Shown: one piece after another, positions 4,437 to 44,721 of the stretch
How positions within the stretch are numbered: the stretch's first letter is position 1
Layout of the letters: every line of letters starts with the position of its first letter
IMG/VR virus record: IMGVR_UViG_3300036859_000157
Span: 1-51,345 of that record
Source: a virus
Strand: one strand, 5' to 3'
Length of the DNA: 51,345 bases
Position numbers and translations under genes: made by a program
The notes under the pieces: generated by a model
The model's input: the letters and a program-made list of their open reading frames with translations, nothing else
Told to the model about the DNA's origin: nothing
Database searches by the model: none

Positions 4437-4691
4437 TCAGGCACCCCAGGTTGTTAGACGTTCTTTTGCGAACTGCTCGACTTCCTCGACTACCTTCGCG
4501 TGATTCAACTTCATAACACCAGCTTTGGAGCTACCACGATCATGACGCTTGACCATGCGCTTTGCGACGCGCCTAATCTTGCGTCGACCTGAATTCTTAC
4601 TGATAGCTTTCGTCTGATCCCCGTAGTTGATCCAGAGATAACTATCTGACGCGTCCATCTGCAACTTGTGCGTGTGCGGTTGTGCGTTCAT
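4437..4691 (-). CDS. basic hypothetical protein, 84 aa
   Basis: Starts MNAQPHTHK through an ATGA overlap with the rtcB stop. Residues 30-60 are strongly basic (RRKIRRVAKRMVKRH), suggesting nucleic-acid contact, and the C-terminus is an amphipathic helix. Co-translation with RtcB is suggested by the junction; a functional link is only inference. Confidence 0.6.
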   Translation of the reverse strand: MNAQPHTHKLQMDASDSYLWINYGDQTKAISKNSGRRKIRRVAKRMVKRHDRGSSKAGVMKLNHAKVVEEVEQFAKERLTTWGA

Positions 4692-5923
4692 TTGACCCCC
4701 TTGAAGTTGAGTACCTGACGCAGCACCCATAGCGGCTCGACCAAATCCTTCTGCGCTTCCATCACTTGGTCGATGTCCTTGTAAGCCTTCGGATGTTCGT
4801 CGACGAGCTGATCGACATCCTGCGCGAGCCACGCACAGTCACCCATCATCTCGGTGAGTGAATCCCCTGATAACTCCCGCTTCGCTTGGGAGCGCGACAT
4901 CGTGCGACCTGCGCCGTGGCTGCAGCTATGGTAGCTAGCTGGGTTGCCGAGTCCACGAACGATGTACGTAGCCGCTCCCATCGAGCCGGGAATAATTCCA
5001 AGGTCACCTTCTCGCGCACGAATCGCTCCTTTGCGGGTTAGGAAAACGTTGTTGCCCATGTGATTTTCGAGCGCTGTGTAGTTGTGATGACAGTTGATAC
5101 GGTCGATCTCGCGGGCGTGCGGGATGTGGTGTTGCAATGCGCGCATGACGACCGACAACATGCGCTCGCGATTAGCTAGCGCGTAGTTCTGCGACCACTT
5201 CAACTCAACGAGGTAGCGGTCGAACTCGGCCGTGCCCTGCGGCAGGTAAGCAAGCTCGGGGTCTTCGAGTTCGATGTACATGCGCTTCATTAAGTCTTTG
5301 GCCGCGCGGATGTAACGTTGTGCAGTTTCGTTGCCGATGCCACGCGAACCGGAGTGGAGCACGATCCAGACGATCTCGTGTTCCTGCGACTCGTCGTTGT
5401 AGTGCTCGTCTTGCACTACAAGAAATCGATTACCCAGGCACACTTCGATGAAGTGGTTACCGCTCCCGAGCGTGCCGAACTGCGAGATAATCTTATGCAC
5501 GCTCTTCTGGTTCCACACCTCAGCAACCGGGAAGTCCGGCGAATTAGCTTCGAGCCACTTCGCGCCGACGTCGAACCCCTTGCTGTTCCGATGGAAGCCC
5601 TGCCCGACACCAGACGGAACTTGAGACGCGATGGAGTCGAGCAGCGGTTCGAGCGAGTCTGGCAAATCGGACGCGAGTAGGTTTGTTCGGATAGCGGCCA
5701 TGCCGCAACCGATGTCGACGCCGACGGCTGACGGGATGACGGCACCGTGAGTTGGAATGACTGTGCCTACGCTAGAGCCCGGACCAACATGTGCGTCGGG
5801 CATTAGCGAGACATGCGGACGGACAAACGGAAGCCGAGCAACGCGTTCAGCCTGACGGATCGTGCCGGGCTCGATGTTGTCGAGTCCCCAGACTAGGAGT
5901 TTGTCGGAAACCTTCTCAGGCAT
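4688..5923 (-). CDS. rtcB: RtcB-type RNA ligase
   Basis: RtcB joins RNA 2',3'-cyclic phosphate or 3'-phosphate ends to 5'-OH ends using GTP and Mn2+. This 411-residue protein has the family signatures: MPDAHVG (41-47), VGVDIGCGM with the metal-binding Cys73, GTLGSGNHFIE, HSGSRGIG, the CHHNY histidines and the HGAGR-MSR segment that carries the guanylylated histidine. Length is close to bacterial RtcB. Start MPEKVSD overlaps the upstream gene by 8 bp. It sits in one operon with an Rnl2-like ligase and two phosphoesterases and next to a large tRNA array, fitting repair of cleaved tRNAs. Confidence 0.95.
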   Translation of the reverse strand: MPEKVSDKLLVWGLDNIEPGTIRQAERVARLPFVRPHVSLMPDAHVGPGSSVGTVIPTHGAVIPSAVGVDIGCGMAAIRTNLLASDLPDSLEPLLDSIASQVPSGVGQGFHRNSKGFDVGAKWLEANSPDFPVAEVWNQKSVHKIISQFGTLGSGNHFIEVCLGNRFLVVQDEHYNDESQEHEIVWIVLHSGSRGIGNETAQRYIRAAKDLMKRMYIELEDPELAYLPQGTAEFDRYLVELKWSQNYALANRERMLSVVMRALQHHIPHAREIDRINCHHNYTALENHMGNNVFLTRKGAIRAREGDLGIIPGSMGAATYIVRGLGNPASYHSCSHGAGRTMSRSQAKRELSGDSLTEMMGDCAWLAQDVDQLVDEHPKAYKDIDQVMEAQKDLVEPLWVLRQVLNFKGVK

Positions 5924-6185
5924 CCGGGTGACCTTTCGGGAGCTGGCGACGAACATCGTCGGCAACCTTAGCGTCAGTGAGTGCGAGCAACGCAGCGAGC
6001 AACTCCGCTCCACCAACAACAACGTGCGCGATGGATTTAGTCATTGTCTCTTCGTGTGTCTCTTTGAACTCACAGACGTCTATAAACACACGAGGACCGA
6101 CAGAAGAAATTTGCAAAACATGCTCTTCCGGTGGAGCGTATTTCTCGTCGTACTGTTCGATTACGATGCGTTGAATGCGACTCAT
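5916..6185 (-). CDS. hypothetical protein, 89 aa
   Basis: Starts MSRIQRIVIEQYDEKY through an ATGA overlap. The first 45 residues look beta-rich and the rest is an alanine-rich helix (GGAELLAALLAL). It directly precedes rtcB and overlaps it by 8 bp. Not recognised. Confidence 0.6.
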   Translation of the reverse strand: MSRIQRIVIEQYDEKYAPPEEHVLQISSVGPRVFIDVCEFKETHEETMTKSIAHVVVGGAELLAALLALTDAKVADDVRRQLPKGHPDA

Positions 6186-6403
6186 ACCTTCTCCTTTTCG
6201 TTCGCGTCATAGTACCAGCAAGCTAGACACGTGAGCCAATACTTCCCTTCGTAGCACCAGAGCGTCCAGTGTACCGTTCTTCCGTCAGTGAGTAGTGTTC
6301 CCACCGGCCCGCACCTCGGACACGGGTCGATGACGTTGATGAGCTTATGCGTTAGCTGGTTGAGCAAGTACCACTTAGGGAAACGGTACACACGGGACTC
6401 CAT
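6182..6403 (-). CDS. zinc-ribbon hypothetical protein, 73 aa
   Basis: Two CxxC pairs (CPRCG and CLACW) frame a beta hairpin, the usual pattern of a zinc ribbon. It is aromatic-rich (KWYLLNQ, WTLWCYEGKYW). Start MESRVYRF overlaps the upstream gene by 29 bp. Function unknown; one of many small zinc proteins in this genome. Confidence 0.6.
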   Translation of the reverse strand: MESRVYRFPKWYLLNQLTHKLINVIDPCPRCGPVGTLLTDGRTVHWTLWCYEGKYWLTCLACWYYDANEKEKV

Positions 6404-6812
6404 ACCGTTTCGCAACCTTACGAGATACCTTGCCGGTGTCGTAGATCGCATCAACAACAGCATGCGAAGAACGATATCCAAAACGATGCTCGTTGACGAT
6501 GCCAAACATCTTGATACGTCCGATCACTTCATTCTTGATGGGGAGTTCCGCTATCTGTTGTAGCTCCCATTCACCAAAATCCTTAAACCCATAGAACCCA
6601 CAGTTGCAATTAGGATTACCTGGTTGATGGGTGGGAGGATTGCTCATAGCACCCGGCTTCCTCCACAAGGAAGCACAACGAGCTTTATTTACACCCACCA
6701 CCCACTCGAAGTCGTGAGTAAGCGCCATGAGAATTTTCTTACGCCCAAAGAATCCTTTAGAGCTGACCATCCACGCACGGTAACCGATAACCGGTATGAA
6801 CCCATCCGGCAC
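6375..6812 (-). CDS. hypothetical protein, 145 aa, GTG start
   Basis: The start is placed at GTG (MPDGFIPVIGYRAW) because the upstream Pro-rich gene ends just before it; no ATG is available. The GYRAW opening, a central NPPTHQPGNPNCNCGFYGF segment and the C-terminal VVDAIYDTG region recall small proteins common in mycobacteriophages whose function is unknown. The Cys pair NCNCG may bind metal. Confidence 0.6.
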   Translation of the reverse strand: MPDGFIPVIGYRAWMVSSKGFFGRKKILMALTHDFEWVVGVNKARCASLWRKPGAMSNPPTHQPGNPNCNCGFYGFKDFGEWELQQIAELPIKNEVIGRIKMFGIVNEHRFGYRSSHAVVDAIYDTGKVSRKVAKRYGVPCVPFP

Positions 6813-6835
6813 CGCAGGCTTTTGATATGTCGGTT

Positions 6836-7021
6836 CTAAGCGGGAACTTTTTCTGGCGTAGGAGAGGTAGGAGAGATAGGTTCCGGCTTGATGGGCTCGA
6901 CTGGCTGCTCTGGCGGCACAGGTAAAGCAGGTTCCTCCACTGAGGGAGAAGGTTCCGCAGGAATGGCAGGTTCCTCCACGGGCTCGATGTAAATTGTGCG
7001 ACGGTACGGGCCTATGTTCAT
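6836..7021 (-). CDS. Pro/Glu-rich protein, 61 aa
   Basis: Starts MNIGPYRRTIYIEPVEEPA and continues as a proline-glutamate repeat, probably unstructured. Proteins with the same opening are widespread in actinophages and have no known role. The start overlaps the RNA ligase stop as ATGA. Confidence 0.7.
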   Translation of the reverse strand: MNIGPYRRTIYIEPVEEPAIPAEPSPSVEEPALPVPPEQPVEPIKPEPISPTSPTPEKVPA

Positions 7022-7941
7022 TGCGTTCCTCCTTGTCCATTTGGACTCCTTTCCGTGTCGAACTGCAACTCGGCTAGTTTCTGCTTGTACCAATCCGCGA
7101 ACCCGTTCACGACACCCTTCTTGATCTTCGGCATCGCCCACTTTACCAGGCGCGCGGCGATATCGCTAGTACCTTCGTCGTCAATGTCCATGTGTAGCTC
7201 GCGCATCAGCTCGGGGATATCGGCAGGCGAGTTTGTCAGCTCACCGCGCTCGCGCAGATGCTGAACTGCCTTAGCCCAGCGAGCCTCGGTTTTGTAAGCA
7301 GCCACGAGCTGGTCGAGCATGTCATCGGACTGCGTACGACCGCGCTGGCGGGCTGGCATGTTGACTTCGCGGAACACAGGCGACACGTACTTGCCCGCGA
7401 GAATTTTACCATCGCGGCCGTACTTGTTGTAGTTCTTGATGACGACCCCTTCGATCTTGCAGCCGCCGAGAAAGGATTCGTTGGCGAGCAGCATGTCGAG
7501 TGTAGACATATCGACGATCTCTACAGGGAAACGAGGCACAACATCGATGCCGAGCATCTCGGCGAACGTGTCCTTCTGGCTCGGCGATACGAACGTGTTC
7601 TCGGCAGGCTCTACGTCGTACAGCGCGAGACAGTGCTTGGGCGTTCGGCCGTAGAGCAACGCGTTATGCTTTGGTTTAGCGATGTACTCGCAACGGTATA
7701 CGTTGCCGGTCGGGATCGTGCTGAAGATGTCGGCGAGGTAGTCGACTGCAGGTTGGAACATGCCCGCGTTTTCCAGGTCGAGATCAGAATTCTTCGATCT
7801 CACGTAAAGCTTGTCGTCGAACACGCCGAACGAGAACTGTGAGCCGTCCAGTTTTTCTTCCAGAACGCAGGGGCCATTGAGCAAGTCTTCAATCTCGGGT
7901 GCGCCGAGATTCCAGACCTTACAGTATGACCAGATAGTCAC
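7018..7941 (-). CDS. Rnl2-type RNA ligase
   Basis: ATP-dependent RNA ligase that seals 3'-OH/5'-phosphate nicks, as T4 Rnl2 does. Motif I is EEKLDGS with the AMP-accepting Lys30. Later motifs are visible as RCEYIAKPKHN (motif III region), EGVVIKNY (motif IV) and GKYVSPVF (motif V). At 307 aa it has a C-terminal helical domain of family-like size. Its ATG overlaps both the upstream and downstream genes. With RtcB in the same operon the phage can seal both chemical types of RNA break. Confidence 0.9.
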   Translation of the reverse strand: MTIWSYCKVWNLGAPEIEDLLNGPCVLEEKLDGSQFSFGVFDDKLYVRSKNSDLDLENAGMFQPAVDYLADIFSTIPTGNVYRCEYIAKPKHNALLYGRTPKHCLALYDVEPAENTFVSPSQKDTFAEMLGIDVVPRFPVEIVDMSTLDMLLANESFLGGCKIEGVVIKNYNKYGRDGKILAGKYVSPVFREVNMPARQRGRTQSDDMLDQLVAAYKTEARWAKAVQHLRERGELTNSPADIPELMRELHMDIDDEGTSDIAARLVKWAMPKIKKGVVNGFADWYKQKLAELQFDTERSPNGQGGTQ

Positions 7942-8156: not shown

Positions 8157-8311
8157 TCGTTGCAGCACGTGTGCGCTTCTTCGGACACGCGTTCCTTCAA
8201 GTCATCGATCTCGGCGAGTAAGTTCGAGATGTGCTCTAGAGCCCGAGTGACAATCACTTCAGGAGTGTGGTAGGAATTGAGATCGCGAACGAACCATCGG
8301 TAGCGTTCCAT
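8153..8311 (-). CDS. small helical protein, 52 aa
   Basis: Begins MERYRWFVRDLNSYHTPEV and continues as one amphipathic helix with heptad-like leucines (ALEHISNLLAEIDDLKERV), ending EEAHTCCNE. Stop and start are shared with both neighbours (ATGA and TGATG), strong evidence that it is translated. The double Cys may bind metal. Function unknown. Confidence 0.65.
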   Translation of the reverse strand: MERYRWFVRDLNSYHTPEVIVTRALEHISNLLAEIDDLKERVSEEAHTCCNE

Positions 8312-8619
8312 CACACGTCTTGCTTCCCACGCAATGCCATACGCACGTCATCGAGGAAGGAGCCACCACCGTTACGCATCGCGTAGTCGGTAAGTAGCTT
8401 CTGAACTACCTGTACGTCGTCGAACGGTTCGAGATCAGTGATGCCATGCTCTTCGAACGGTGACGGACACGAGCAACCCGAATCGGTCGCGTAGAAAAGT
8501 TTACCGGATTCGAGGTTGCGCCACACAACGAGATAATCGAACGAGTAATCCGGTTCACTTAGATCGACCTGTGTGAGCACCTCTAGACCGAACTTGCTTG
8601 GGTCGAAGTAGATGTCCAT
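8311..8619 (-). CDS. hypothetical protein, 102 aa
   Basis: Starts MDIYFDPSKFGLEVL at a TGATG junction. The core SFDYLVVWRNLESGKLFYATDSGCSCPSPFE is the pattern of a small conserved phage family that I recall as uncharacterised. The CSC motif is notable. Role unknown. Confidence 0.7.
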   Translation of the reverse strand: MDIYFDPSKFGLEVLTQVDLSEPDYSFDYLVVWRNLESGKLFYATDSGCSCPSPFEEHGITDLEPFDDVQVVQKLLTDYAMRNGGGSFLDDVRMALRGKQDV

Positions 8620-8786
8620 CACCACCAGCCTTGTGCGTTACCGATGCGGTACACCGCATATCCGACAGCACTCCAGAAAGCTGCCCAGAGAAGTAGCGAA
8701 AGACAACTGACACCGAGAACACCTGCCGCATACTTCTTCGGCAGTTTGGCATCGAAGTCGTGAGTGAAGCGACGATCCATAGGCAT
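8619..8786 (-). CDS. small membrane protein, 55 aa
   Basis: A strong AAGGAG lies seven bases before the ATG. The N-terminus is charged (MPMDRRFTHDFDAKLPKKY) and is followed by one long hydrophobic segment (GVLGVSCLSLLLWAAFW and on) ending NAQGWW. Topology is probably N-in with a single membrane pass. It closes with a TGATG junction to the next gene. Function unknown. Confidence 0.7.
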   Translation of the reverse strand: MPMDRRFTHDFDAKLPKKYAAGVLGVSCLSLLLWAAFWSAVGYAVYRIGNAQGWW

Positions 8787-8788
8787 CG

Positions 8789-9037
8789 TTACTCCTTGTC
8801 TAGTTCGGCTGTGTTGTCGGGAATGTTCGTCATAACAGCGTGCTCGAAGATTTTGATGAGGTCACGCAAGAATCCTCCACCGAGACTCACCATCAATAAT
8901 TCCGTGAGTACCGTAACGTCATCTTTGGTTACGTCTTCGAGTACATCTGCAAGACGAGCGGACGACTCACTCAAGTCGCGCGCTTTACGTGCGAAGCTCT
9001 CGCGCTCGCGTGCGTTCATATCGGTAATCAGTGGCAT
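8789..9037 (-). CDS. hypothetical protein, 82 aa, first gene of left operon
   Basis: Start MPLITDMNARERE has AAAGGAGAG upstream. The sequence is helical (SESSARLADVLEDVTKDDV) with a small hydrophobic patch near LLMVSLGGGFLRDLI. It is the first gene after the promoter at 9061-9090, so it should be the most strongly translated of the left arm. Not recognised. Confidence 0.65.
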   Translation of the reverse strand: MPLITDMNARERESFARKARDLSESSARLADVLEDVTKDDVTVLTELLMVSLGGGFLRDLIKIFEHAVMTNIPDNTAELDKE

Positions 9038-9060: not shown

Positions 9061-9090
9061 TGTATACCACAGATTTCACCGGATAAGCAA
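9061..9090 (-). promoter_or_regulatory. sigma70-like promoter of left operon
   Basis: On the minus strand TTGCTT (9085-9090) and TATACA (9061-9066) are separated by 18 bp, and the first gene with a good ribosome site follows 24 bases on. A terminator hairpin lies immediately upstream, which isolates this promoter. Confidence 0.6.
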
Positions 9091-9121
9091 GGAGCCCCGA
9101 TCCGAAGACCAGGGCTCCTTG
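9088..9121 (-). terminator. intrinsic terminator-like hairpin
   Basis: A perfect 10-bp stem (9088-9097 with 9112-9121) and a 14-nt loop. On the minus strand a short T-rich run (CTTGCTT) overlaps and follows the stem. It would end transcription of the upstream RNA and tRNA array just before the left-operon promoter. Confidence 0.6.
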
Positions 9122-9345
9122 TGTGAAGAGGACTTCACCTCTACCGAGGGACAAGGCGTTGGATGATAACCAATTACCCTCAGACCTAGCTGTCGCTATC
9201 GCCGCACGCCGCTTCCACGTATCCGCTTCCGCGCCCGAGTTGAGCACTTGCCGTCCCTCGGTCCTGCGTACCAACTAGTGCGTTACGGTCCTCCTTGCGT
9301 AGCCGTTGTTCCGCCATCACGCCCCTGGTCCGTCGACCAGGGGAG
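9088..9345 (-). ncRNA. candidate structured non-coding RNA
   Basis: This stretch has its own promoter (9351-9380) and ends at the hairpin at 9088-9121. It contains a 9-bp hairpin with a 4-nt loop near the 5' end (9322-9343) and a 120-nt domain closed by a perfect 10-bp helix (9143-9152 with 9253-9262). Two copies of an 8-bp repeat lie inside (9209-9216, 9223-9230). It matches no tmRNA, 6S or RNase P signature that I know. A 43-codon frame (9186-9317, starting MAEQRLRKEDRN) could instead make it an mRNA. Confidence 0.5.
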
Positions 9346-9350
9346 AACGT

Positions 9351-9380
9351 AGATTACTCCTTATGCAACTCCTTTGTCAA
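9351..9380 (-). promoter_or_regulatory. sigma70-like promoter, near-consensus -35
   Basis: TTGACA (9375-9380) and TAATCT (9351-9356) on the minus strand, 18 bp apart. It lies 77 bp downstream of the last tRNA and directly upstream of the structured RNA region. Confidence 0.6.
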
Positions 9381-9457
9381 ATGGCTCCAATGGCTGCCCG
9401 CTCACTTGAATACGGTGCGGCACCATAAGTCGGGTGTCAGTCCGCACACCACCGGAG

Positions 9458-9531
9458 TACGCCTGGCAGGATTCAAACCTGCACCTCCCACCTTCGTAGG
9501 GTGGTGCTCTGTTCAGTTGAGCTACAGACGC
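9458..9531 (-). tRNA. tRNA-Arg (ACG)
   Basis: Full cloverleaf: 7-bp acceptor with two G-U pairs, T loop TTTGAAT and anticodon loop CTACGAA. No encoded CCA. Last gene of the array. Confidence 0.93.
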
Positions 9532-9532
9532 G

Positions 9533-9604
9533 TAGCCTAGCCGGGTTACGATCCCGGTACCTCAGCTTGAAAGGCTGAGATGTTAACCAGTACACCACTA
9601 GGCC
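9533..9604 (-). tRNA. tRNA-Glu (TTC)
   Basis: Acceptor GGCCTAG/CTAGGCT, anticodon loop CTTTCAA. The T loop is ATCGTAA, slightly off consensus. One nucleotide separates it from tRNA-Arg. Confidence 0.9.
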
Positions 9605-9704
9605 ATGAAGGATTCGCACCTTCAAATCACGTAGCCACTCTCGTCTCCGACCAAGGGAGCTTGCAGCATCGCTCCAGATGCCTTATCCGAGCAACTACGT
9701 ATCG
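9605..9704 (-). other. tRNA-like region without a canonical tRNA
   Basis: The 100 bp between tRNA-Glu and tRNA-His hold tRNA parts that do not assemble. There is a perfect T-arm-like hairpin (9607-9623) with loop TGCGAAT, a D-arm-like stretch with GG, and a possible acceptor GATACGT/ACGTGAT (6 of 7 pairs). No standard anticodon arm is found. It may be a decayed tRNA or an unusual structured RNA. Confidence 0.35.
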
Positions 9705-9779
9705 GGTGACTGATGGGAATCGAACCCACTAGCGCTCAGGTTCACAGCCTGGCCCCTCATCCGGTTGGGTTCAGCCACC
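9705..9779 (-). tRNA. tRNA-His (GTG)
   Basis: Anticodon loop CTGTGAA, with the extra G-1 paired to discriminator C73, the identity mark of bacterial tRNA-His. Acceptor GTGGCTG/CAGTCAC. Confidence 0.93.
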
Positions 9780-9780
9780 G

Positions 9781-9852
9781 CAGCTCTGGCGAGGATCGAA
9801 CTCGCGATACCAGGTTGAGAACCTGGCGTGCTAACCGCTACACTACAGAGCC
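9781..9852 (-). tRNA. tRNA-Glu (CTC)
   Basis: Anticodon loop TTCTCAA on a perfect 5-bp stem; T loop TTCGATC; discriminator G. One nucleotide from each neighbour. Confidence 0.93.
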
Positions 9853-9853
9853 G

Positions 9854-9925
9854 TCCGCCTGGAAGGAATCGAACCTTCGTCTGCAAGATATAAGCTTGCG
9901 GTTCTTACCATTGAACTACAGGCGA
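9854..9925 (-). tRNA. tRNA-Ile (TAT)
   Basis: Anticodon loop CTTATAT, reading the rare AUA codon directly with U34 instead of the lysidine-dependent CAT form. Acceptor TCGCCTG/CAGGCGG starts with a U-G pair. Confidence 0.88.
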
Positions 9926-9926
9926 G

Positions 9927-9999
9927 TGCACCGTATCGGACTCGAACCGATGGTCTTCTGCTTGTAAGGCAGTTGCTTTAGCCGCTAAGCTAACAGTGC
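9927..9999 (-). tRNA. tRNA-Val (TAC)
   Basis: Acceptor GCACTGT/ACGGTGC, anticodon loop CTTACAA, T loop TTCGAGT, discriminator A. Confidence 0.93.
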
Positions 10000-10025
10000 G
10001 CCATTACTTTAACACGTACTGCAAG

Positions 10026-10098
10026 CACCGGTATGAGGATTCGAACCCCAATCTGACTCGTTAGAAGCGAGCCGTCTTCTCCGTTAGACGATACCGGC
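10026..10098 (-). tRNA. tRNA-Arg (TCT)
   Basis: Anticodon loop CTTCTAA on a 5-bp stem, decoding AGA/AGG. Acceptor GCCGGTA/TACCGGT. Separated from tRNA-Val by a 26-nt spacer with no visible feature. Confidence 0.93.
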
Positions 10099-10099
10099 G

Positions 10100-10184
10100 C
10101 GGAGGATAGGTGATTCGAACACCTACTGGTATACCCAGCCCGTCGGTTAGCAACCGAGGACGTTAGCCGTTCCGTCAATCCTCC
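10100..10184 (-). tRNA. tRNA-Ser (GCT)
   Basis: Class II tRNA of 85 nt with a long variable arm, perfect acceptor GGAGGAT/ATCCTCC, anticodon loop TTGCTAA and discriminator G. Confidence 0.92.
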
Positions 10185-10185
10185 G

Positions 10186-10268
10186 AGGAAAGTAGACGGA
10201 TCGAACGCCCGCGTGTTACCGCGCCCTGGGGTTCAAACCCAGTTGCCCACCATTGAGCGGTACCTTCC
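10186..10268 (-). tRNA. tRNA-Ser (TGA)
   Basis: Class II, 83 nt, anticodon loop TTTGAAC on stem CTGGG/CCCAG. The T stem has two G-U pairs and the discriminator is U rather than the usual G of serine tRNAs. Confidence 0.82.
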
Positions 10269-10269
10269 G

Positions 10270-10351
10270 TGAAGGTGGAGAGATTCGAACTCTCATGTCG
10301 CGAGGACACTGCGCACTCAACGCAGCGTGTATACCGTTCCACCACACCTTC
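10270..10351 (-). tRNA. tRNA-Leu (GAG)
   Basis: Class II, 82 nt, perfect acceptor GAAGGTG/CACCTTC, anticodon loop TTGAGTG, T arm GAGAG/CTCTC, discriminator A as expected for leucine. Confidence 0.92.
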
Positions 10352-10352
10352 G

Positions 10353-10425
10353 CACGCCAGGCAGGATTCGAACCTGCGACCATCTGCTTCGAAGGCAGAC
10401 ACTCTGTCCGCTGAGTTACTGACGC
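10353..10425 (-). tRNA. tRNA-Arg (TCG)
   Basis: Anticodon loop CTTCGAA on stem TCTGC/GCAGA; T loop TTCGAAT; discriminator G. Confidence 0.93.
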
Positions 10426-10426
10426 G

Positions 10427-10498
10427 TGAAGCCACTGGGACTCGAACCCAGGTCACCGGGTTAAGAGCCCGGTAGTCTAGCCGCTGACTTATAGCTTC
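10427..10498 (-). tRNA. tRNA-Lys (CTT)
   Basis: Anticodon loop CTCTTAA on a GC-rich stem; acceptor GAAGCTA/TGGCTTC. Its 5' end overlaps the 3' end of an HNH gene by 10 bp. Confidence 0.92.
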
Positions 10499-10869
10499 GT
10501 TGTGAGTTTACCACGACGCCGCAAGCTCTCTCGCCACTTGCGTCGATCTAGTGTATTTGCCAATCGACAAGCATCACATCGGCATCTATGAATCTTGTAG
10601 CGTCGCGTGCTTCCGTGTGGTGATTCATGTTTCTTCTTATGGCACTCCCGACAAAGTACCTGGCACTTTGCAAGCTCTTCGGCACGACGCGTTGGTGTCC
10701 ACGTCCAAACGTTGTGTGACACCTTTTCGTCTGGATCGATGTGGTCAACTTCTAAATTCTGTGTTGAACCACAAGCTACACACCTCTTCCCGGCCAAGAA
10801 CTCTGCACGAATTCTTGCATTACGCTCGCGTTGATATTTGCGTTGTCGTGCTGGGTTCTTGTAGGGCAT
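10489..10869 (-). CDS. HNH homing endonuclease inside tRNA array
   Basis: A 126-aa HNH nuclease. The core reads CVACGSTQNLEVDHIDPDEK, then LCRECHKKKHE, giving two CxxC zinc knuckles around the catalytic DHID histidine. The N-terminal segment is basic (PARQRKYQRERNARIRAEF) and the C-terminus has a third Cys pair (RCRCDAC). It occupies the gap between tRNA-Gly and tRNA-Lys and its end overlaps tRNA-Lys by 10 bp. ATG is preferred over a GTG two codons upstream. Confidence 0.85.
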   Translation of the reverse strand: MPYKNPARQRKYQRERNARIRAEFLAGKRCVACGSTQNLEVDHIDPDEKVSHNVWTWTPTRRAEELAKCQVLCRECHKKKHESPHGSTRRYKIHRCRCDACRLANTLDRRKWRESLRRRGKLTTKL

Positions 10870-10896
10870 CCCCACAAGATATCAGGAAAAGAGCGG

Positions 10897-10967
10897 CGTG
10901 GTTGCCGGGAATCGAACCCGGATCGAAACGTTGGCAACGTCCCGTCATGCCGTTAGACCACAACCAC
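10897..10967 (-). tRNA. tRNA-Gly (GCC)
   Basis: Acceptor GTGGTTG/CAACCAC, anticodon loop TTGCCAA, T arm CCGGG/CCCGG. A 25-bp part of its anticodon arm region (10928-10952) is repeated exactly at 19128-19152 inside a protein gene. Confidence 0.93.
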
Positions 10968-10968
10968 G

Positions 10969-11042
10969 CGATGCTGATGGGATTCGAACCCACACGTTCC
11001 ACCGTGACAGGGTGGCGCACTGTCCAGTTGTGCTACAGCACC
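10969..11042 (-). tRNA. tRNA-Asp (GTC)
   Basis: Anticodon loop CTGTCAC on stem CCACC/GGTGG; discriminator G as expected for aspartate. Confidence 0.93.
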
Positions 11043-11043
11043 G

Positions 11044-11114
11044 CTCGCGGACGTGGACTCGAACCACGATGACGAGGGTCAAAGCCTCGCGACTTGCCGT
11101 TAATCGATCCGCGA
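11044..11114 (-). tRNA. tRNA-Gln (TTG)
   Basis: Perfect acceptor TCGCGGA/TCCGCGA, anticodon loop CTTTGAC, discriminator G. The acceptor is identical to that of the second glutamine tRNA at 13058. Confidence 0.92.
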
Positions 11115-11115
11115 G

Positions 11116-11196
11116 TTGACTCGGTGGGAGTCGAACCCACATCCCGCGAGGGCACAGTTTCTAAGACTGCTGCGTATCCCGTTCCGCCACGAGTCA
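11116..11196 (-). tRNA. tRNA-Leu (TAG)
   Basis: Class II, 81 nt, perfect acceptor TGACTCG/CGAGTCA, anticodon loop CTTAGAA, long variable arm, discriminator A. Confidence 0.92.
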
Positions 11197-11197
11197 G

Positions 11198-11270
11198 TAC
11201 AGTGGGCGAGATTCGAACTCGCAACCCATCGGGCTTAAACCGACGGCCTCTACCATTGGGCTACCACTGC
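11198..11270 (-). tRNA. tRNA with anticodon TAA, class I shape
   Basis: A 73-nt tRNA with a 7-bp acceptor (GCAGTGG/CCACTGT) and loop TTTAAGC. The anticodon UAA reads the leucine codon UUA, yet the variable loop has only five bases, unlike class II leucine tRNAs. Charging identity is therefore uncertain. Its D arm resembles that of the next tRNA. Confidence 0.8.
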
Positions 11271-11271
11271 G

Positions 11272-11346
11272 TAACGCAGGTGGGAGTCGAACCCACAACA
11301 GCGAGGTTTTGAAGCTCGCGCCTCTGCCAAATTGGGCTACTGCGTC
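11272..11346 (-). tRNA. tRNA with anticodon CAA, class I shape
   Basis: Acceptor GACGCAG/CTGCGTT. Anticodon loop TTCAAAA, with a C-C mismatch at position 31-39, or a 9-nt loop if read on the perfect GCGAG/CTCGC stem. CAA reads UUG (Leu) but the variable region is short. Similar D arm to its UAA neighbour. Confidence 0.75.
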
Positions 11347-11683
11347 ACTGAAACGATAACACATAACGCACGGCTTCCTTGCGGCGTTTACCTAATCCGC
11401 TCCAGAGGAAGGCTGCTACAGCTTGCGTGCGCTCGAATCCATTCGCTCGCCATACAAATGATTTCTTGTAGTGCGAGTACTTCGGATGATCTTTGAAGTC
11501 GCGAGAGTGGACGGTCCCGAATCCAATGATGCGCTGAAACCGCAATACAGAATCTTCGTCGGTCATACGCAGCGCTGCAGTTGGGTAAACGTACTCCTTC
11601 CCATTCTTGCGAATAGTAGTTAGGAAGAAAGAACCTTCACCTTCAAAGAGCCCCGCTGCCCATGCCAGCTCTTCACGATTCAC
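11345..11683 (-). CDS. LAGLIDADG homing endonuclease inside tRNA array
   Basis: A 112-aa protein with one LAGLIDADG-type motif (LAWAAGLFEGEGSFF, residues 6-20) and typical downstream pattern (TAALRMTDEDSVLRFQRIIGFG). It resembles the free-standing gene at 3260. It starts at GTG only 2 bp from tRNA-Pro and its end overlaps the CAA tRNA by 2 bp, so it fills exactly the space between two tRNAs. Expected to act as a homodimer. Confidence 0.85.
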   Translation of the reverse strand: MNREELAWAAGLFEGEGSFFLTTIRKNGKEYVYPTAALRMTDEDSVLRFQRIIGFGTVHSRDFKDHPKYSHYKKSFVWRANGFERTQAVAAFLWSGLGKRRKEAVRYVLSFQ

Positions 11684-11684
11684 G

Positions 11685-11755
11685 TCTGGGTAGGAGGAAT
11701 TGAACCTCCGCTAAAGGCTTCCAAGGCCCTCGTGCGGCCACAACACTTTACCCAG
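11685..11755 (-). tRNA. tRNA-Pro (TGG)
   Basis: Perfect acceptor CTGGGTA/TACCCAG, anticodon loop CTTGGAA, T loop TTCAATT, discriminator A. Confidence 0.92.
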
Positions 11756-11756
11756 G

Positions 11757-11829
11757 TTGGTCAGGTGAGGATCGAACTCACTAATGCCGCCATATCAGAG
11801 CGGTGTGTTTACCAATTCACCACTGACCA
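11757..11829 (-). tRNA. tRNA-Ile (GAT)
   Basis: Perfect acceptor TGGTCAG/CTGACCA, anticodon loop CTGATAT, discriminator A. The end of a broken HNH gene runs into its 5' half. Confidence 0.93.
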
Positions 11830-12143
11830 GTGTCCGCTCGCGCGAACCAAATGTGCGTTCTGCGTGACAGTTCGCACATACTATATCGCACTTGACAACT
11901 TCTGCCAAGATTACTCCCCAAGCTCGCTTCCAGTTCGATGAAATTCCAAACGATTTCTCAGCCGGATCACGATGATCGAACTGCATCACATACGGCGGAT
12001 ACTTCACACCACAATCTGCACAAGGAACGTTCTAACTCGTTAAGTACTGCGCGACGTTTCTCGTATTGTCTGCGACTGTGACGCAACGCATCCTCTGGCC
12101 GTGACTTCCGATACTTACGCATGTATTCAGTAGTTGCAGCCAT
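11795..12143 (-). pseudogene. HNH endonuclease broken by a frameshift
   Basis: Two minus-strand frames together make one phage-type HNH protein. The N-terminal frame starts ATG at 12143 (MAATTEYMRKYRKSRPED) and reads to about residue 37. The rest continues in another frame as NVPCADCGVKYPPYVMQFDHRDP, then IVCANCHAERTFG. The junction lies near 12030, at a TTAGAACGTT stretch, and looks like a 1-bp indel. The 3' end reads into tRNA-Ile. Either a pseudogene or a sequencing error; programmed shifting is unlikely because no slippery site is evident. Confidence 0.7.
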
Positions 12144-12147
12144 CTCG

Positions 12148-12232
12148 TGTAGCGGGCAGGATTTGAACCTGCGCGGCCCTCTCGGACTCCGGGGTTACAG
12201 CCCGGCGCTTTCAGCCTCTCAGCCACCGCTAC
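12148..12232 (-). tRNA. tRNA-Tyr (GTA)
   Basis: Class II, 85 nt, perfect acceptor GTAGCGG/CCGCTAC, anticodon loop CTGTAAC, long variable arm, discriminator A. Confidence 0.93.
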
Positions 12233-12233
12233 G

Positions 12234-12312
12234 TGGAGCGCCCGAGATTCGAACTCGGTTCTCACCGCGCTCCGCATGCGGCTCTCACGGTGATCGAAAC
12301 CAATTACACTCC
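12234..12312 (-). tRNA. atypical tRNA, anticodon not assignable
   Basis: The acceptor (GGAGTGT/GCGCTCC) and T arm (CCGAG/CTCGG, loop TTCGAAT) are good, and it keeps the exact one-nucleotide spacing to both neighbours. Between them no 7-nt anticodon loop with U33 can be formed; instead TCACCG pairs with CGGTGA and encloses a CCG-CATG-CGG hairpin. It may be a changed or non-decoding tRNA. Confidence 0.5.
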
Positions 12313-12313
12313 G

Positions 12314-12385
12314 AGCTGGTAACAGGAGTCGAACCCGTGTCAGCACATTACAAGTGTGCCGCTCTACCACTTGAGCTATACCAGC
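12314..12385 (-). tRNA. tRNA-Thr (TGT)
   Basis: Perfect acceptor GCTGGTA/TACCAGC, anticodon loop CTTGTAA, discriminator U. Confidence 0.92.
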
Positions 12386-12386
12386 G

Positions 12387-12457
12387 AGCCGCATCGGGGA
12401 ATCGAACTCCGATCACGTGTTTACGAAACACGCACTCTGCCTTTGAGCTAATGCGGC
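12387..12457 (-). tRNA. tRNA-Thr (CGT)
   Basis: Perfect acceptor GCCGCAT/ATGCGGC, anticodon loop TTCGTAA on stem CGTGT/ACACG; one A-C mismatch in the T stem. Confidence 0.9.
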
Positions 12458-12458
12458 G

Positions 12459-12529
12459 AGCTTGTGGCGGGAATCGAACCCACACTAGTTGCTTACCGAG
12501 CAACCGTTCTACCGTTGAACTACACAAGC
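12459..12529 (-). tRNA. tRNA-Thr (GGT), C33 variant
   Basis: Acceptor GCTTGTG/CACAAGC and stem GTTGC/GCAAC are perfect. The loop TCGGTAA gives anticodon GGT but carries C instead of the nearly invariant U at position 33. Confidence 0.85.
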
Positions 12530-12530
12530 G

Positions 12531-12602
12531 CTCCGCAGGTAGGATTCGAACCCACGCCGCCGTCCTTAACAGGGACGCATGCCGCCACAACACCTCTGCG
12601 GA
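12531..12602 (-). tRNA. tRNA-Asn (GTT)
   Basis: Perfect acceptor TCCGCAG/CTGCGGA, anticodon loop CTGTTAA, discriminator G. Confidence 0.93.
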
Positions 12603-12603
12603 G

Positions 12604-12676
12604 TGCTCCCAGTAGGATTCGAACCCACATCTACGCGGTTAAAAGCCGCTTGCTCTAGCCATTGAGCTACGGGAGC
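12604..12676 (-). tRNA. tRNA-Lys (TTT)
   Basis: Acceptor GCTCCCG/TGGGAGC, anticodon loop CTTTTAA, discriminator A. Confidence 0.92.
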
Positions 12677-12677
12677 G

Positions 12678-12750
12678 TGGAGCTTCGGGGAGTCGAACCC
12701 CGTCCTCCTGGGTGCAAACCAGGTGTGATAACCGGTAACACTAAAGCCCC
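12678..12750 (-). tRNA. tRNA-Ala (TGC)
   Basis: Acceptor GGGGCTT/AAGCTCC contains a G-U at the third pair (G3-U70), the alanine identity element. Anticodon loop TTTGCAC, T arm CGGGG/CCCCG. Confidence 0.93.
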
Positions 12751-12751
12751 G

Positions 12752-12821
12752 AGGCGCGGGACGGATTCGAACCGTCTTCGACGAGTTTGCAGCTCGCCTG
12801 CTCACCATTTGCTTACGCGCC
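12752..12821 (-). tRNA. tRNA-Cys (GCA)
   Basis: Anticodon loop CTGCAAA on stem GCGAG/CTCGT; discriminator U, the cysteine identity base. The seventh acceptor pair is mismatched (U-C). Confidence 0.9.
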
Positions 12822-12846
12822 ATGACCGATTGCTCGATCAAAAGCG

Positions 12847-12903
12847 TGCCGGACATTTCAGACGGCCCTTTTCGCTGGCCGCGCGGGCTTCACCGCTCCG
12901 GCA
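12847..12903 (-). other. compact tRNA-like RNA lacking a T arm
   Basis: Within the 88-nt gap between tRNA-Gly(TCC) and tRNA-Cys lies a 57-nt element. It has a perfect 7-bp closing stem (TGCCGGA/TCCGGCA), a 4-bp GCGG/CCGC hairpin and a 5-bp CGGCC/GGCCG hairpin with a 9-nt loop. That layout is acceptor, D-like arm and anticodon-like arm with no T arm. No U33-anticodon is evident. Not a recognised RNA. Confidence 0.4.
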
Positions 12904-12909
12904 TCCTCG

Positions 12910-12982
12910 TGTGGTAGCTGGGATTCGAACCCAGACGATCTGCTTGGAAGGCAGAGGTGCTGTCCGTTGACACTACTACCAC
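12910..12982 (-). tRNA. tRNA-Gly (TCC)
   Basis: Perfect acceptor GTGGTAG/CTACCAC, anticodon loop CTTCCAA, T arm CTGGG/CCCAG. Confidence 0.93.
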
Positions 12983-12983
12983 G

Positions 12984-13056
12984 TGTCGTAGGGTGGACTC
13001 GAACCACCAACGCCCGCGTCTTCAGCGCGGCGCTCTACCGTTGGAGCTACTACGAC
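12984..13056 (-). tRNA. tRNA-Phe (GAA)
   Basis: Perfect acceptor GTCGTAG/CTACGAC, anticodon loop CTGAAGA on stem CCGCG/CGCGG, discriminator A. Confidence 0.93.
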
Positions 13057-13057
13057 G

Positions 13058-13130
13058 CTCGCGGAGAAGGATTCGAACCCTCATCTCGCTGGCTCAGAAC
13101 CAGCTATCTTTCCTGTTAGACGATCCGCGA
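13058..13130 (-). tRNA. tRNA-Gln (CTG)
   Basis: Acceptor TCGCGGA/TCCGCGA, anticodon loop TTCTGAG on stem GCTGG/CCAGC, discriminator G. Confidence 0.92.
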
Positions 13131-13131
13131 G

Positions 13132-13199
13132 CGGGCCACCGAGGTATCGCGCCCCGCCCGGCGAGTTTTGGAGGCTCACCTGTGCCTTGCACGTAGCCC
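13132..13199 (-). tRNA. atypical tRNA-Trp (CCA)
   Basis: Acceptor GGGCTAC/GTGGCCC pairs fully and discriminator G fits tryptophan. The loop CTCCAAA gives anticodon CCA, with a C-A mismatch closing the stem. The D arm is very short and the T loop reads CGCGATA instead of TTCGANN. The exact one-nucleotide spacing to tRNA-Gln supports it as a real array member. Confidence 0.6.
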
Positions 13200-13315
13200 A
13201 GGCCGGGTTTGCACCGGCTAAATATTCGGTGGCAGGTACGAGGCAGTCGCCGAGCCGGGACCGCGAGCAGAGCCCACAGCACCGGCCAGGCGAGCGCCCC
13301 GCCCTTACCACCACG
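13200..13315 (-). other. GC-rich tRNA-like spacer
   Basis: The 116 bp between tRNA-Met and the Trp-like tRNA hold a perfect T-arm-like hairpin (GCCGG/CCGGC, loop TGCAAAC, about 13202-13218) whose following bases overlap the Trp-like tRNA. A weak seven-pair acceptor partner with three wobbles can be drawn, but no anticodon arm. No open frame is convincing. Confidence 0.3.
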
Positions 13316-13389
13316 TTGCGGAGACGGGATTCGAACCCGTGATCTTCGGGATATGAGCCCGACGTGATAGACCACTTCACTACTCCGCT
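13316..13389 (-). tRNA. tRNA-Met (CAT), initiator-like
   Basis: Anticodon loop CTCATAT on a stem with three consecutive G-C pairs (TCGGG/CCCGA) and an unpaired 1-72 position (A-A), both initiator features. The D stem has U11-A24, which is elongator-like, so its role is not settled. First tRNA of the array. Confidence 0.88.
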
Positions 13390-19072: not shown

Positions 19073-19289
19073 AGAGCATCAGTGCTTCTACTGTGATCGC
19101 GTGGGTGTCCGTGGATTCGAGTTGACCACGTTGGCAACGTCCCGTCATGCCGATAATGATGGGCTCGAAGTTTGGATGTGTGTCGCAGAGCAGGCTTGCG
19201 AGCGGCGAGCACAAGCGATAATCCGTCACGACCAAACGCACTGCTGGTGTCCACACTGCGGCAACGAACATCCATTGCGCAGTTCTTGA
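19062..19289 (+). CDS. zinc-finger protein, 75 aa, carries tRNA-Gly fragment
   Basis: CFYCDRVG at the N-terminus and CWCPHCGNEH near the end form a zinc site. The middle codons (TTLATSRHA) lie on a 25-bp sequence identical to part of the phage's own tRNA-Gly(GCC). Start ATG overlaps the upstream gene by 11 bp. The stop codon overlaps a TTGACA promoter element. Confidence 0.65.
   Translation: MPPEEHQCFYCDRVGVRGFELTTLATSRHADNDGLEVWMCVAEQACERRAQAIIRHDQTHCWCPHCGNEHPLRSS
19128..19152. repeat. 25-bp copy of tRNA-Gly(GCC) segment
   Basis: Identical to 10928-10952, which covers the anticodon loop and part of the D arm of tRNA-Gly. Flanking bases also keep a GGATTCGA piece reminiscent of a T loop, so this may be a decayed tRNA or an attachment-site core. 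Confidence 0.7.
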
Positions 19290-19313
19290 CAAACTCGCTT
19301 TTGGGTGTAGACT
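19286..19313 (+). promoter_or_regulatory. sigma70-like promoter
   Basis: TTGACA (19286-19291) and TAGACT (19308-19313) with 16 bp between. A GC-rich hairpin CTCGGC/GCCGAG (19312-19327) sits at the expected start of transcription. Confidence 0.5.
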
Positions 19314-19403
19314 CGGCTTACGCCGAGCCGCCGAAGCCGCCTCTCCGCCTCCCGCCAACCCGCTCCCCACTCCCTCTCCACGAAGTGTCATCTGGTGCAT
19401 CTA

Positions 19404-19444
19404 CCTTTATACCCTTGCACTCCATTAGTGCTTAGGTGTAAAGG
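19404..19444. repeat. long interrupted inverted repeat
   Basis: Outer arms of 10 bp (one mismatch), a symmetric 3-nt internal loop, then a perfect 5-bp GCACT/AGTGC stem and a 5-nt loop. No T-run follows, so a terminator is unlikely. Confidence 0.6.
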
Positions 19445-19550
19445 GCGTATACACATTTGCTATGGTCACACCGTCATCCGTCGAAGATGCACCAGCTCAC
19501 AGAAGCGAGTACATCAGTTGCGCAGGATGCTAGGCGGAAGTTTGGGCGAT

Positions 19551-19601
19551 TGCTACTTTTTCGGTAGCAGAATTCTGTCATCTGCTACTTTTTTGGTAGC
19601 A
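19551..19601. promoter_or_regulatory. two tandem operator-like inverted repeats
   Basis: TGCTAC-N7-GTAGCA occurs at 19551-19569 and 19583-19601. The arms are identical and the spacers (TTTTTCG, TTTTTTG) nearly so. Centres are 32 bp apart, three helical turns. They lie just upstream of the regulator promoter. Confidence 0.7.
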
Positions 19602-19609
19602 CAAATCCC

Positions 19610-19636
19610 TTGCAAATGTCACTGGCATCGTATAGT
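19610..19636 (+). promoter_or_regulatory. promoter of XRE-RHH regulator
   Basis: TTGCAA (19610-19615) and TATAGT (19631-19636), 15 bp apart. The GTG start at 19648 is 11 bases after the -10, so the mRNA would be nearly leaderless. Confidence 0.5.
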
Positions 19637-19647
19637 CTCGCCGTCCT

Positions 19648-20691: not shown

Positions 20692-20933
20692 TGCTTGATC
20701 TCGTAACTCCTAAAGGAGAAGAGGCCGTTAAGCGCGGCATTCTTGAGTTCACCCGTCGCGCCAATGCAGACGGTGATGTCGTGAGCGCACTGGCGCATTC
20801 GATGATGAGTATCAGTGCTTACATGGAGAGTGAGTTGAGCGAGGCCGGGCTCGATGCAGAACGCACTATGAGCTTGGTTGCCACGTTTCTTTGGGGATAC
20901 ATCATCAACATGAACTGCAGCTTCGATGATTAA
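20691..20933 (+). CDS. helical hypothetical protein, 80 aa
   Basis: All-helical, with MSLVATFLWGYIINMN near the C-terminus that is hydrophobic but short for a membrane segment. It overlaps the helicase gene start by 8 bp and its own start overlaps the previous stop. Not recognised. Confidence 0.6.
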   Translation: MLDLVTPKGEEAVKRGILEFTRRANADGDVVSALAHSMMSISAYMESELSEAGLDAERTMSLVATFLWGYIINMNCSFDD

Positions 20934-23397
20934 CATTCCGTTTGACGACTTCAATGATCCGAAATGGGGAACGCAAGCTCCCTGGCCTCCACCTTGGTTC
21001 AAGGGATATAAGCCTGGGCAAAAGGACGCTATCCAACAAATAGTCGATTGCTACGAAGAGCGCAACGCCGATCTCGTGCTGCTCGACGCGCCGACGGGAG
21101 CGGGCAAAACGTTCATAGCTGAAGCTACGCGTCGATTGCTAGAGGTTCATCAAACCTGCTACATGTGCAGCGACCTCGCCCTCATGGAACAGTTCGTATC
21201 GCCTAAGAAGGGTTTCCCTTATGCAGCGCGCATCATGGGGCGAGCCAACTACCCGACAGCCGATTATCCTCACTACTTTGATCTCCCGAGCTGGGATACG
21301 CGGTATCTCACGTGTGCAGACTGTACACGCAGCGAAAAGGAGTCTAGCTGTCAGCACTGTAGCGTCCCGACCGCGAGTCCATACCAACACTGCAACTGGT
21401 GTCATGGCTCATGCCCGTATCAGGCAGCTAAGTTCCTGGCGCTCAACTCTAAGCTGAGCTGTACCAATTCGGCCTACTTCCTTTACCACTGCAACTCGGG
21501 GGCCGAACAGAATCTGTCTGGGTGTGAGTTCGTAATCGCTGATGAATGTGATCGGCTAGAGAGTGAGCTACTTTCATACGTGAGTGTGGAGATCAGCGCG
21601 AAGCGCATGCACGAGATGAAGATAGACCTGCCGCCTAAAGTCACTATCGCCGAGTCGTGGGAAGAGTGGATACGCGACGAAGCAGCACCTGCCGTAACGC
21701 GTAAGCTCAACGATCTCAATGGGCTGACAGATAAACAATCGGTGCGCTCGCGTGACTATTACACCAAGCTGCGGGACAAGCTTAAGAGCCTAGCCGGTGA
21801 GGTGGGCAACGAGAACTGGGTGCTCGACGGTTACCAGCGTGGCAACGTAATCTTTAAGCCAGTACGCGTAAACGAGGTAGGCGACGGCGTGTTGTGGAAG
21901 CACGGCACACGTTGGTTGTGCATGAGCGCAACGATCTTGAGCCCGCCTGAGTTTGTAGAGAGCTTAGGTTTCCAGGGCAACTGGGAGTATGTACAGATGG
22001 GCAGCACGTTTGATCCCAAGCGTAGGCCCGTGAGAGTCGCCCCAGTTGCGAACATGAACCTCGATAACAAACCACACGCGTGGCCTGCGATGGTTGATGG
22101 AATCGCTAAGGTAATGAGCTGGCACCCTACCGAACGCATCCTCATTCATACAGTGAGTTATCCGCTAGCCAAATACCTCGAAGAGAAATTGTCATCACCT
22201 CGTGTTATGACATACAGCCAATCTAAGGAGCGCACCAAGATTTTGAAGTTGTACACACAAACACCCAATGCGGTTATGCTCGCACCATCAATGGATCGCG
22301 GAGTTGACTTACCACATGATGATTGTCGCGTTGTTGTTGTAGCGAAAGCGCCGTGGCCGAACTTAGGCGACAAGCAGATAGCGAAGCGGCGCTACACACA
22401 CGGTGGCTCGTTGTGGTACGTTGTCACGATGTTCCGCACGCTTATTCAGCAAGTAGGACGCGCAATGCGCGCTGAGGATGACTACTGCTTCTGCGTTGGT
22501 CCCGAGACTCGTGTTCTCACTGAAGACCTAATGTGGATTCCTGCCGGTAAGCTTTCTGTGGGAGACAAGCTACTTGGGTTCGACGAATCCACGTCCGGTC
22601 ATGATAAACGTCGCATTAAACCCGCTACGGTCCTCGCGACAGGTATCGAAGAGTTACCTCGCATACGAATCCACCTGGCATCAGGGCAATCAATAGATTG
22701 CACGCCCGGACATAAATGGCTTGCAAGACGGCGCGGACGTGTGACGTGGGTACGCACCGATCAGTTGAAGGTGGGAGACTCTGTTAACCGCTACCTAGAC
22801 ACTTGGGACGAAGATACGTCTTACGAGGCAGGTTGGTTATCTGCCTTCTTCGACAGTGAAGGATGTCTCACAACGCGCACAGGTACACGCAATCCTCGTG
22901 TTACTTCACTCAATGCGAGCCAACGGCCAGGACGTGTATTGAATCGGGCTGAAACCTACCTCTCACATCTAGAGTTTCCCATCGCTATTTATGGCAACAA
23001 CTCCACTGATGTGCAGACCATCAACGTGCAGGGTGGCTTAACCTCGCACCTTCGGTTACTTGGGCAGATACGACCACTACGATTGCTCGATAAGATGATT
23101 ACCTCGGGTTACCAACAAGAATTACGAGCAATAGAACAAACGGAAGTAGTTGACGTAGAGGTTCTTGACGATGGCCCAATGGTTACACTGCAGAGTTCGT
23201 CGGAGACATACTTCGCTGAAGGTTTTGGAGCGCACAACACCTACATACTTGACGAAAGTGCTGCAAAGGAGTTGAATAGGTACCCTCGTTTGATCCCAAA
23301 ATGGTTCAGCGACGCGATTGTAACGACAGGAACTTGGGCGAAAGACTTACGCCCAGAAAGGCAGGTGATTGATCCCGCTCTAGTCGAAGCGAAGTAG
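20926..23397 (+). CDS. DinG/Rad3-like helicase with intein
   Basis: An SF2 helicase of the XPD/DinG type. Walker A is APTGAGKT (55-62). A cysteine-rich region (CADC, CQHC, CNWCHGSC, about 126-165) probably holds an Fe-S cluster or zinc. Walker B is ADECD. Motif VI is QQVGRAMRAEDDYCF at about 508-522. A 249-residue intein (523-771) interrupts the protein directly after this motif; the host protein resumes with TYILDE. Without the intein it is 574 aa. It leads the replication and recombination genes and probably unwinds DNA. Confidence 0.88.
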   Translation: MINIPFDDFNDPKWGTQAPWPPPWFKGYKPGQKDAIQQIVDCYEERNADLVLLDAPTGAGKTFIAEATRRLLEVHQTCYMCSDLALMEQFVSPKKGFPYAARIMGRANYPTADYPHYFDLPSWDTRYLTCADCTRSEKESSCQHCSVPTASPYQHCNWCHGSCPYQAAKFLALNSKLSCTNSAYFLYHCNSGAEQNLSGCEFVIADECDRLESELLSYVSVEISAKRMHEMKIDLPPKVTIAESWEEWIRDEAAPAVTRKLNDLNGLTDKQSVRSRDYYTKLRDKLKSLAGEVGNENWVLDGYQRGNVIFKPVRVNEVGDGVLWKHGTRWLCMSATILSPPEFVESLGFQGNWEYVQMGSTFDPKRRPVRVAPVANMNLDNKPHAWPAMVDGIAKVMSWHPTERILIHTVSYPLAKYLEEKLSSPRVMTYSQSKERTKILKLYTQTPNAVMLAPSMDRGVDLPHDDCRVVVVAKAPWPNLGDKQIAKRRYTHGGSLWYVVTMFRTLIQQVGRAMRAEDDYCFCVGPETRVLTEDLMWIPAGKLSVGDKLLGFDESTSGHDKRRIKPATVLATGIEELPRIRIHLASGQSIDCTPGHKWLARRRGRVTWVRTDQLKVGDSVNRYLDTWDEDTSYEAGWLSAFFDSEGCLTTRTGTRNPRVTSLNASQRPGRVLNRAETYLSHLEFPIAIYGNNSTDVQTINVQGGLTSHLRLLGQIRPLRLLDKMITSGYQQELRAIEQTEVVDVEVLDDGPMVTLQSSSETYFAEGFGAHNTYILDESAAKELNRYPRLIPKWFSDAIVTTGTWAKDLRPERQVIDPALVEAK
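22492..23238 (+). other. intein with LAGLIDADG endonuclease
   Basis: Residues 523-771 of the helicase. It starts with Cys (CVGPETRVLT) and ends HN followed by Thr, the splice-junction residues of class 1 inteins. Block B-like TPGHKW (TxxH) is present. An endonuclease motif reads AGWLSAFFDSEGCL. Insertion is at the conserved motif VI, typical of inteins in essential enzymes. Confidence 0.88.
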
Positions 23398-44711: not shown

Positions 44712-44721
44712 TTATATCCCC

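Follow-up and report, generated by a model that had tools for sequence, protein, structure and literature searches.

The minus-strand stretch from 9380 to 9088 of the window (the whole 51,345-nt piece of DNA analyzed, from IMG/VR virus record IMGVR_UViG_3300036859_000157) may form a promoter-to-terminator unit that makes an untranslated, leader-type RNA of ~260 nt at the head of a leftward operon, a reading to which we give about even confidence. The promoter and hairpins of this unit are seen in the sequence, and we infer the start, stop, and abundance of the RNA. The reading rests on several features: both predicted ends of the RNA have outlier hairpins, the promoter 7 nt upstream of the 5' hairpin has a perfect -35 box, the inner frame is unlike the phage genes, the 82-aa gene beyond the terminator carries a ribosome site of its own, and the 3' hairpin is expected to be a constitutive stop. 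RNA polymerase would start at about 9346 from the TTGACA/TAATCT promoter, and the first ~24 nt would fold into a tight 5' hairpin, protecting the RNA. The 15-bp UUCG hairpin (9121-9088) would then halt most polymerases to give an RNA of about 260 nt, and the operon from 9037 would be fed by read-through or from a second promoter-like site (9090-9061); the unit would in this way set how strongly that operon is expressed. The features are as follows.

9351 to 9380, minus strand: promoter candidate TTGACA-N18-TAATCT, -35 box 6/6, -10 box 3/6 (TANNNT fits)
9322 to 9343, minus strand: 5'-end hairpin, 9 perfect bp with a GACG loop, -18.8 kcal/mol
9122 to 9321, minus strand: interior of the predicted transcript, fold not significant (z about -0.5)
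9186 to 9320, minus strand: frame of 43/44 codons with a GTG ATG start, judged probably not translated
9143 to 9262, minus strand: 120-nt domain closed by a 10-bp helix (9262-9253/9152-9143), helix exact and chance-grade
9088 to 9121, minus strand: terminator-grade 3' hairpin, 15 bp including two G-U pairs, cUUCGg loop, -27.1 kcal/mol
9061 to 9090, minus strand: weak promoter-like site, the second of the region, TTGCTT-N18-TATACA with its second box preceded by TGG, -35 only 3/6, read from sequence
8789 to 9037, minus strand: first gene of the leftward operon, 82 aa, with an AAAGGAG ribosome site

The candidate lies within a 419-bp gap between a tRNA-Arg gene, which ends at 9457, and the 82-aa gene, which starts at 9037. 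The tRNA array consists of 30 genes found by ARAGORN and one more found by Rfam (9705-9778), all on the minus strand within 9457-13389. To its left, also on the minus strand, the 82-aa gene comes first; its product matched neither a Pfam nor a PHROG family. A 55-aa gene, a DUF7574 gene, and the genes for an RNA ligase and RtcB follow. The host is likely an actinobacterium, because the window carries a WhiB gene and its tail proteins are related, at ~24 to 31% identity, to those of Streptomyces and Arthrobacter phages. Two different major tail protein genes (PHROG 10528 and PHROG 9522) stand side by side at 44280-45495 on the minus strand.

Several other observations concern the array and its neighbors. 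RtcB and the RNA ligase (4688-7941, minus strand) adjoin the tRNA array. One IMG/VR locus (L150) has an RNA ligase, RtcB, and eight tRNAs together, and two others (L101 and L131) have DUF7574, RtcB, and tRNAs together; RtcB/RNA ligase next to tRNAs is a recurring tRNA-repair island. The DUF7574 gene (8311-8625, minus strand) carries a DSGCSCPSP motif and is found in or beside tRNA arrays in several phages, two of which have a tmRNA as well. Homing endonuclease genes of HNH and weak LAGLIDADG type lie inside the array at 10489-10875 and 11345-11683 (minus strand). By eye, a tRNA-Trp(CCA) missed by both ARAGORN and Rfam is seen at about 13199-13132, and 10187-10268 looks like a Ser(TGA) tRNA with a weak match to the tRNA-Sec model (29 bits). 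The gap at 9605-9704 is tRNA-like with a T-arm-like end (GAAGGTGCGAATCCTTC), and the gap between tRNA-Met and tRNA-Gln at 13131-13314 has a folding z of -3.1, with a long irregular hairpin directly after tRNA-Met; all of these are on the minus strand.

Read on the minus strand, TTGACA at 9380-9375 is followed by an 18-nt spacer and TAATCT at 9356-9351, and transcription is predicted to start at about 9347-9344. The earlier note had described this promoter as near-consensus. The boxes are present and the -35 is perfect, but the wording is generous for a -10 that agrees with TATAAT only at T1, A2, and T6. The promoter was absent from the sigma-70 scan listing because that scan had a threshold of 4/6 in each box. 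Judged from its letters, the weak -10 box is a point against the promoter-to-terminator reading. The pattern TTGACA-N16-19-TANNNT occurs three times in the window, against 1.2 expected from dinucleotide shuffles.

When 36-nt windows were folded on both strands of the 51 kb, the 3' hairpin ranked first in stability and the 5' hairpin fifth, and the two together explain all of the unusual stability of the stretch. The 5' hairpin (9343-9322) reads CCCCTGGTC-GACG-GACCAGGGG on the minus strand; it had been proposed as a 9-bp hairpin with a 4-nt loop at the predicted 5' end, and it is indeed there and above chance: for a region of this kind, finding a perfect 9-bp hairpin has a P of about 0.006. The terminator-like hairpin at 9121-9088 had been given 10 bp; it is present with 15 pairs. 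Its tail is TTGCTTAT, in which five of eight letters are T, only when the outer CAAGG/CCTTG pairs are not counted as stem, and the scan did not call it; the stem is very strong, and the U-tract is short and interrupted. Such a U-tract is, on the sequence, a further point against the promoter-to-terminator reading. Pairing between the two hairpins, with only that pairing forced, gave -101.7 versus -117.7 kcal/mol, and in this folding model regulated attenuation by such pairing is unlikely. Because forming the antiterminator costs ~16 kcal/mol relative to the terminator fold, the 3' hairpin is expected to stop transcription constitutively.

The main rival holds that the region is a boundary with stops and an operator and makes no functional RNA: the hairpins would stop transcription and so keep the tRNA array and the leftward operon apart, and/or the dyad would be a repressor operator, with the inner 200 nt having no RNA function. 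We consider this possible, though distinctly less probable than the leader-type unit. The 5' hairpin at 9343-9322 is equally readable as a 22-bp DNA dyad over the start site, and both hairpins share CCCTGGTC, which is found nowhere else in the window, as expected of duplicated signals. At the other perfect TTGACA promoter before an operon (19286, plus strand), a GC-rich dyad likewise covers the start, and a gene for an HTH_3 regulator follows. However, the dyads of the two promoters have no common half-site, a stop at the first hairpin would serve no purpose directly after a promoter, and a 250-bp spacer is long for a compact phage. The inner 200 nt fold like shuffled sequence, as the boundary explanation would have it.

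The complete 258-nt stretch has a folding z of about -4, whereas the 200 nt between the hairpins give only -0.4 to -0.5 relative to shuffled sequence and the 120-nt domain alone gives -1.6; sampled 200-nt windows, used as background for these values, have a mean of -0.16 and a standard deviation of 1.3. Thus, with the hairpins as outliers and a z of about -0.5 once they are removed, the ends are exceptional and the core between them is not. The domain had been presented as closed by a perfect 10-bp helix, and the helix is exact (ACCGAGGGAC/GTCCCTCGGT, at 9262-9253/9152-9143, with 100 nt between the arms) but of chance grade: the window has 10 perfect 10-bp inverted repeats with 20- to 150-nt loops compared to 5.5 expected, and the P for a 10-bp inverted repeat in the 293-nt stretch is about 0.02. 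An Rfam scan of the transcript interior gave nothing above gathering score. The idea of a conserved, folded RNA domain was not borne out, with a chance-grade inner helix and no relatives found. What stands of the dedicated non-coding RNA is a discrete minus-strand unit (promoter, hairpins, and second promoter-like site) that has no convincing gene. A statistically better structured-RNA candidate than 9088-9380 is the leader at 19286-19647 (plus strand), in which the second perfect TTGACA promoter is followed by 330 nt with a z of -4.0 before the HTH_3 gene. This leader contains an 11-bp helix around a 10-bp helix at 19380-19520 (z of -3.6) and two tandem TGCTAC...GTAGCA hairpins before the HTH_3 gene, and it gave no Rfam match.

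The stretch had also been said to have no clear gene, which our analysis of the 43-codon frame upholds. This frame is probably untranslated, judging by its composition and start region. Its GC content at the three codon positions is 0.74/0.56/0.60, compared to 0.56-0.64/0.34-0.48/0.43-0.71 in the phage genes. Neither Pfam nor PHROG gave it a family match, and the sole start site of the frame abuts the 5' hairpin. We consider it unlikely that these 43 codons form a gene with a dedicated promoter and terminator. The codon score of 0.12 bits per codon does fall within the lower coding range, near the 25th percentile for segments that truly code, and exceeds the scores of almost all of 111 antisense frames. 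Against such a gene stand the high second-position GC, the missing family match, and the location of the sole SD-like run, which is buried in the 3' arm of the 9-bp stem, 1 to 4 nt from the start. We also considered and rejected an 80-codon upstream extension of the 82-aa gene from a TTG at 9274; it is open, but its composition is non-coding (-0.17 bits per codon).

Four AAGGAG hexamers occur in the ~260 nt at 9374-9120 on the minus strand, compared to 23 on the entire minus strand, and none of the four is at SD distance before a start codon. One AAGGAGG and three more AAGGAG motifs, along with the location next to the tRNA array and the RNA-repair module, would fit an RNA that acts in trans through a specific folded core, as a decoy, antisense, or anti-defence RNA, and that is perhaps linked to RtcB/RNA ligase. 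We find this explanation very unlikely: the core fold is at chance level, complementarity to other parts of the window extends over at most 11 to 12 nt, the same as in shuffles, and there is no Rfam match. Regulatory decoys and anti-defence RNAs had been offered as parallels, and we found no supporting evidence for them. Fainter still is the prospect of a lineage-specific trans-acting RNA, capped by a hairpin at its 5' end and closed by a UUCG terminator, that would act on host RNA polymerase, ribosomes, or RNA-targeting defence beside the RtcB/RNA-ligase tRNA-repair island.

Relatives of the RNA were checked for by blastn, with a covariance model of the 120-nt domain added where whole records were searched; the model, built from a single sequence, has little reach, and distant homologues could escape it. 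A DNA search with the region among 50,697 phage records matched nothing. When IMG/VR was scanned with the RNA ligase, the 82-aa protein, and RtcB as protein seeds, no relatives emerged, and the best RNA ligase and RtcB in the contigs brought in by protein seeds were 46% and 49%, respectively. The helicase-seeded IMG/VR scan returned one contig in which the common part was only the intein-like segment. This helicase (Helicase_C_2; 20926-23397, plus strand) has an apparent intein at about residues 523-772, a part with 36% identity to a segment of IMG/VR locus L002, the intein reading being from sequence only. A tape-measure alignment from IMG/VR held 42 loci, the best with 41% identity over the full match, and the RNA was absent from the 16 records with a tape-measure match that were searched. 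Likewise, it was not found among the 80 loci of a DUF7574 alignment or the 22 loci of an RNA-ligase alignment. The exact helix pattern had 0 matches in IMG/VR, and the 3' hairpin had 0 matches in GTDB genomes. IMG/VR contig G022 was rejected as a true relative, its common content being only the RNA ligase (38%) and DUF7574, and we regarded short matches with E < 1 (14 to 24 bp, or one of 14.9 bits to the model) as chance. With no homologue among the phage records and IMG/VR contigs searched, there is no sign of conservation for the RNA, a point against the promoter-to-terminator reading.

In light of these results, the candidate is a plausible orphan small RNA or leader, apparently ordinary and of a known kind. 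Several known RNAs were considered and set aside: no Rfam model was matched for a 6S/Ms1 type polymerase-binding RNA, a T-box, or a known riboswitch, no model was matched for a tRNA-like fold, and neither ARAGORN nor Rfam found a tmRNA in the window. GOLLD and ROOL resemble the candidate as non-coding RNAs beside a phage-type tRNA array with homing endonucleases. However, they are larger and have an Rfam or published model, whereas the candidate has no Rfam match, and their family covariance models were not matched. The mycobacterial GOLLD in a tRNA cluster is over 400 nt (PMC6582537). Attenuated leaders have the same order of promoter, leader with helices, terminator hairpin, and operon, but the ~16 kcal/mol deficit of the antiterminator fold here means that terminator and antiterminator are not of similar stability, and on the pairing that was forced, an attenuator or riboswitch leader is unlikely.

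Pleft, an early promoter in the cluster A mycobacteriophages L5, D29, and StarStuff, is the source of a stable, processed non-coding RNA of about 500 nt (PMC5712189). This RNA is very abundant, with about 90% termination before the early genes, and the Pleft region is toxic to M. smegmatis (PMC5712189). The stretch had no match to Pleft (L5/D29 right end) in 50,697 phage records, and the Pleft RNA, at about 500 nt and processed, differs from the ~260 nt predicted here. The two are alike in that the RNA comes, here by prediction, from a promoter heading a leftward operon, lacks a convincing ORF, and would stop before the first gene. The Pleft RNA is the closest described parallel, in likeness of layout rather than in membership, and serves as a precedent for the promoter-to-terminator reading. 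If the stretch is transcribed as predicted, it would add another phage operon with a short, terminated non-coding RNA at its head, and would suggest that this layout recurs in unrelated actinophages.
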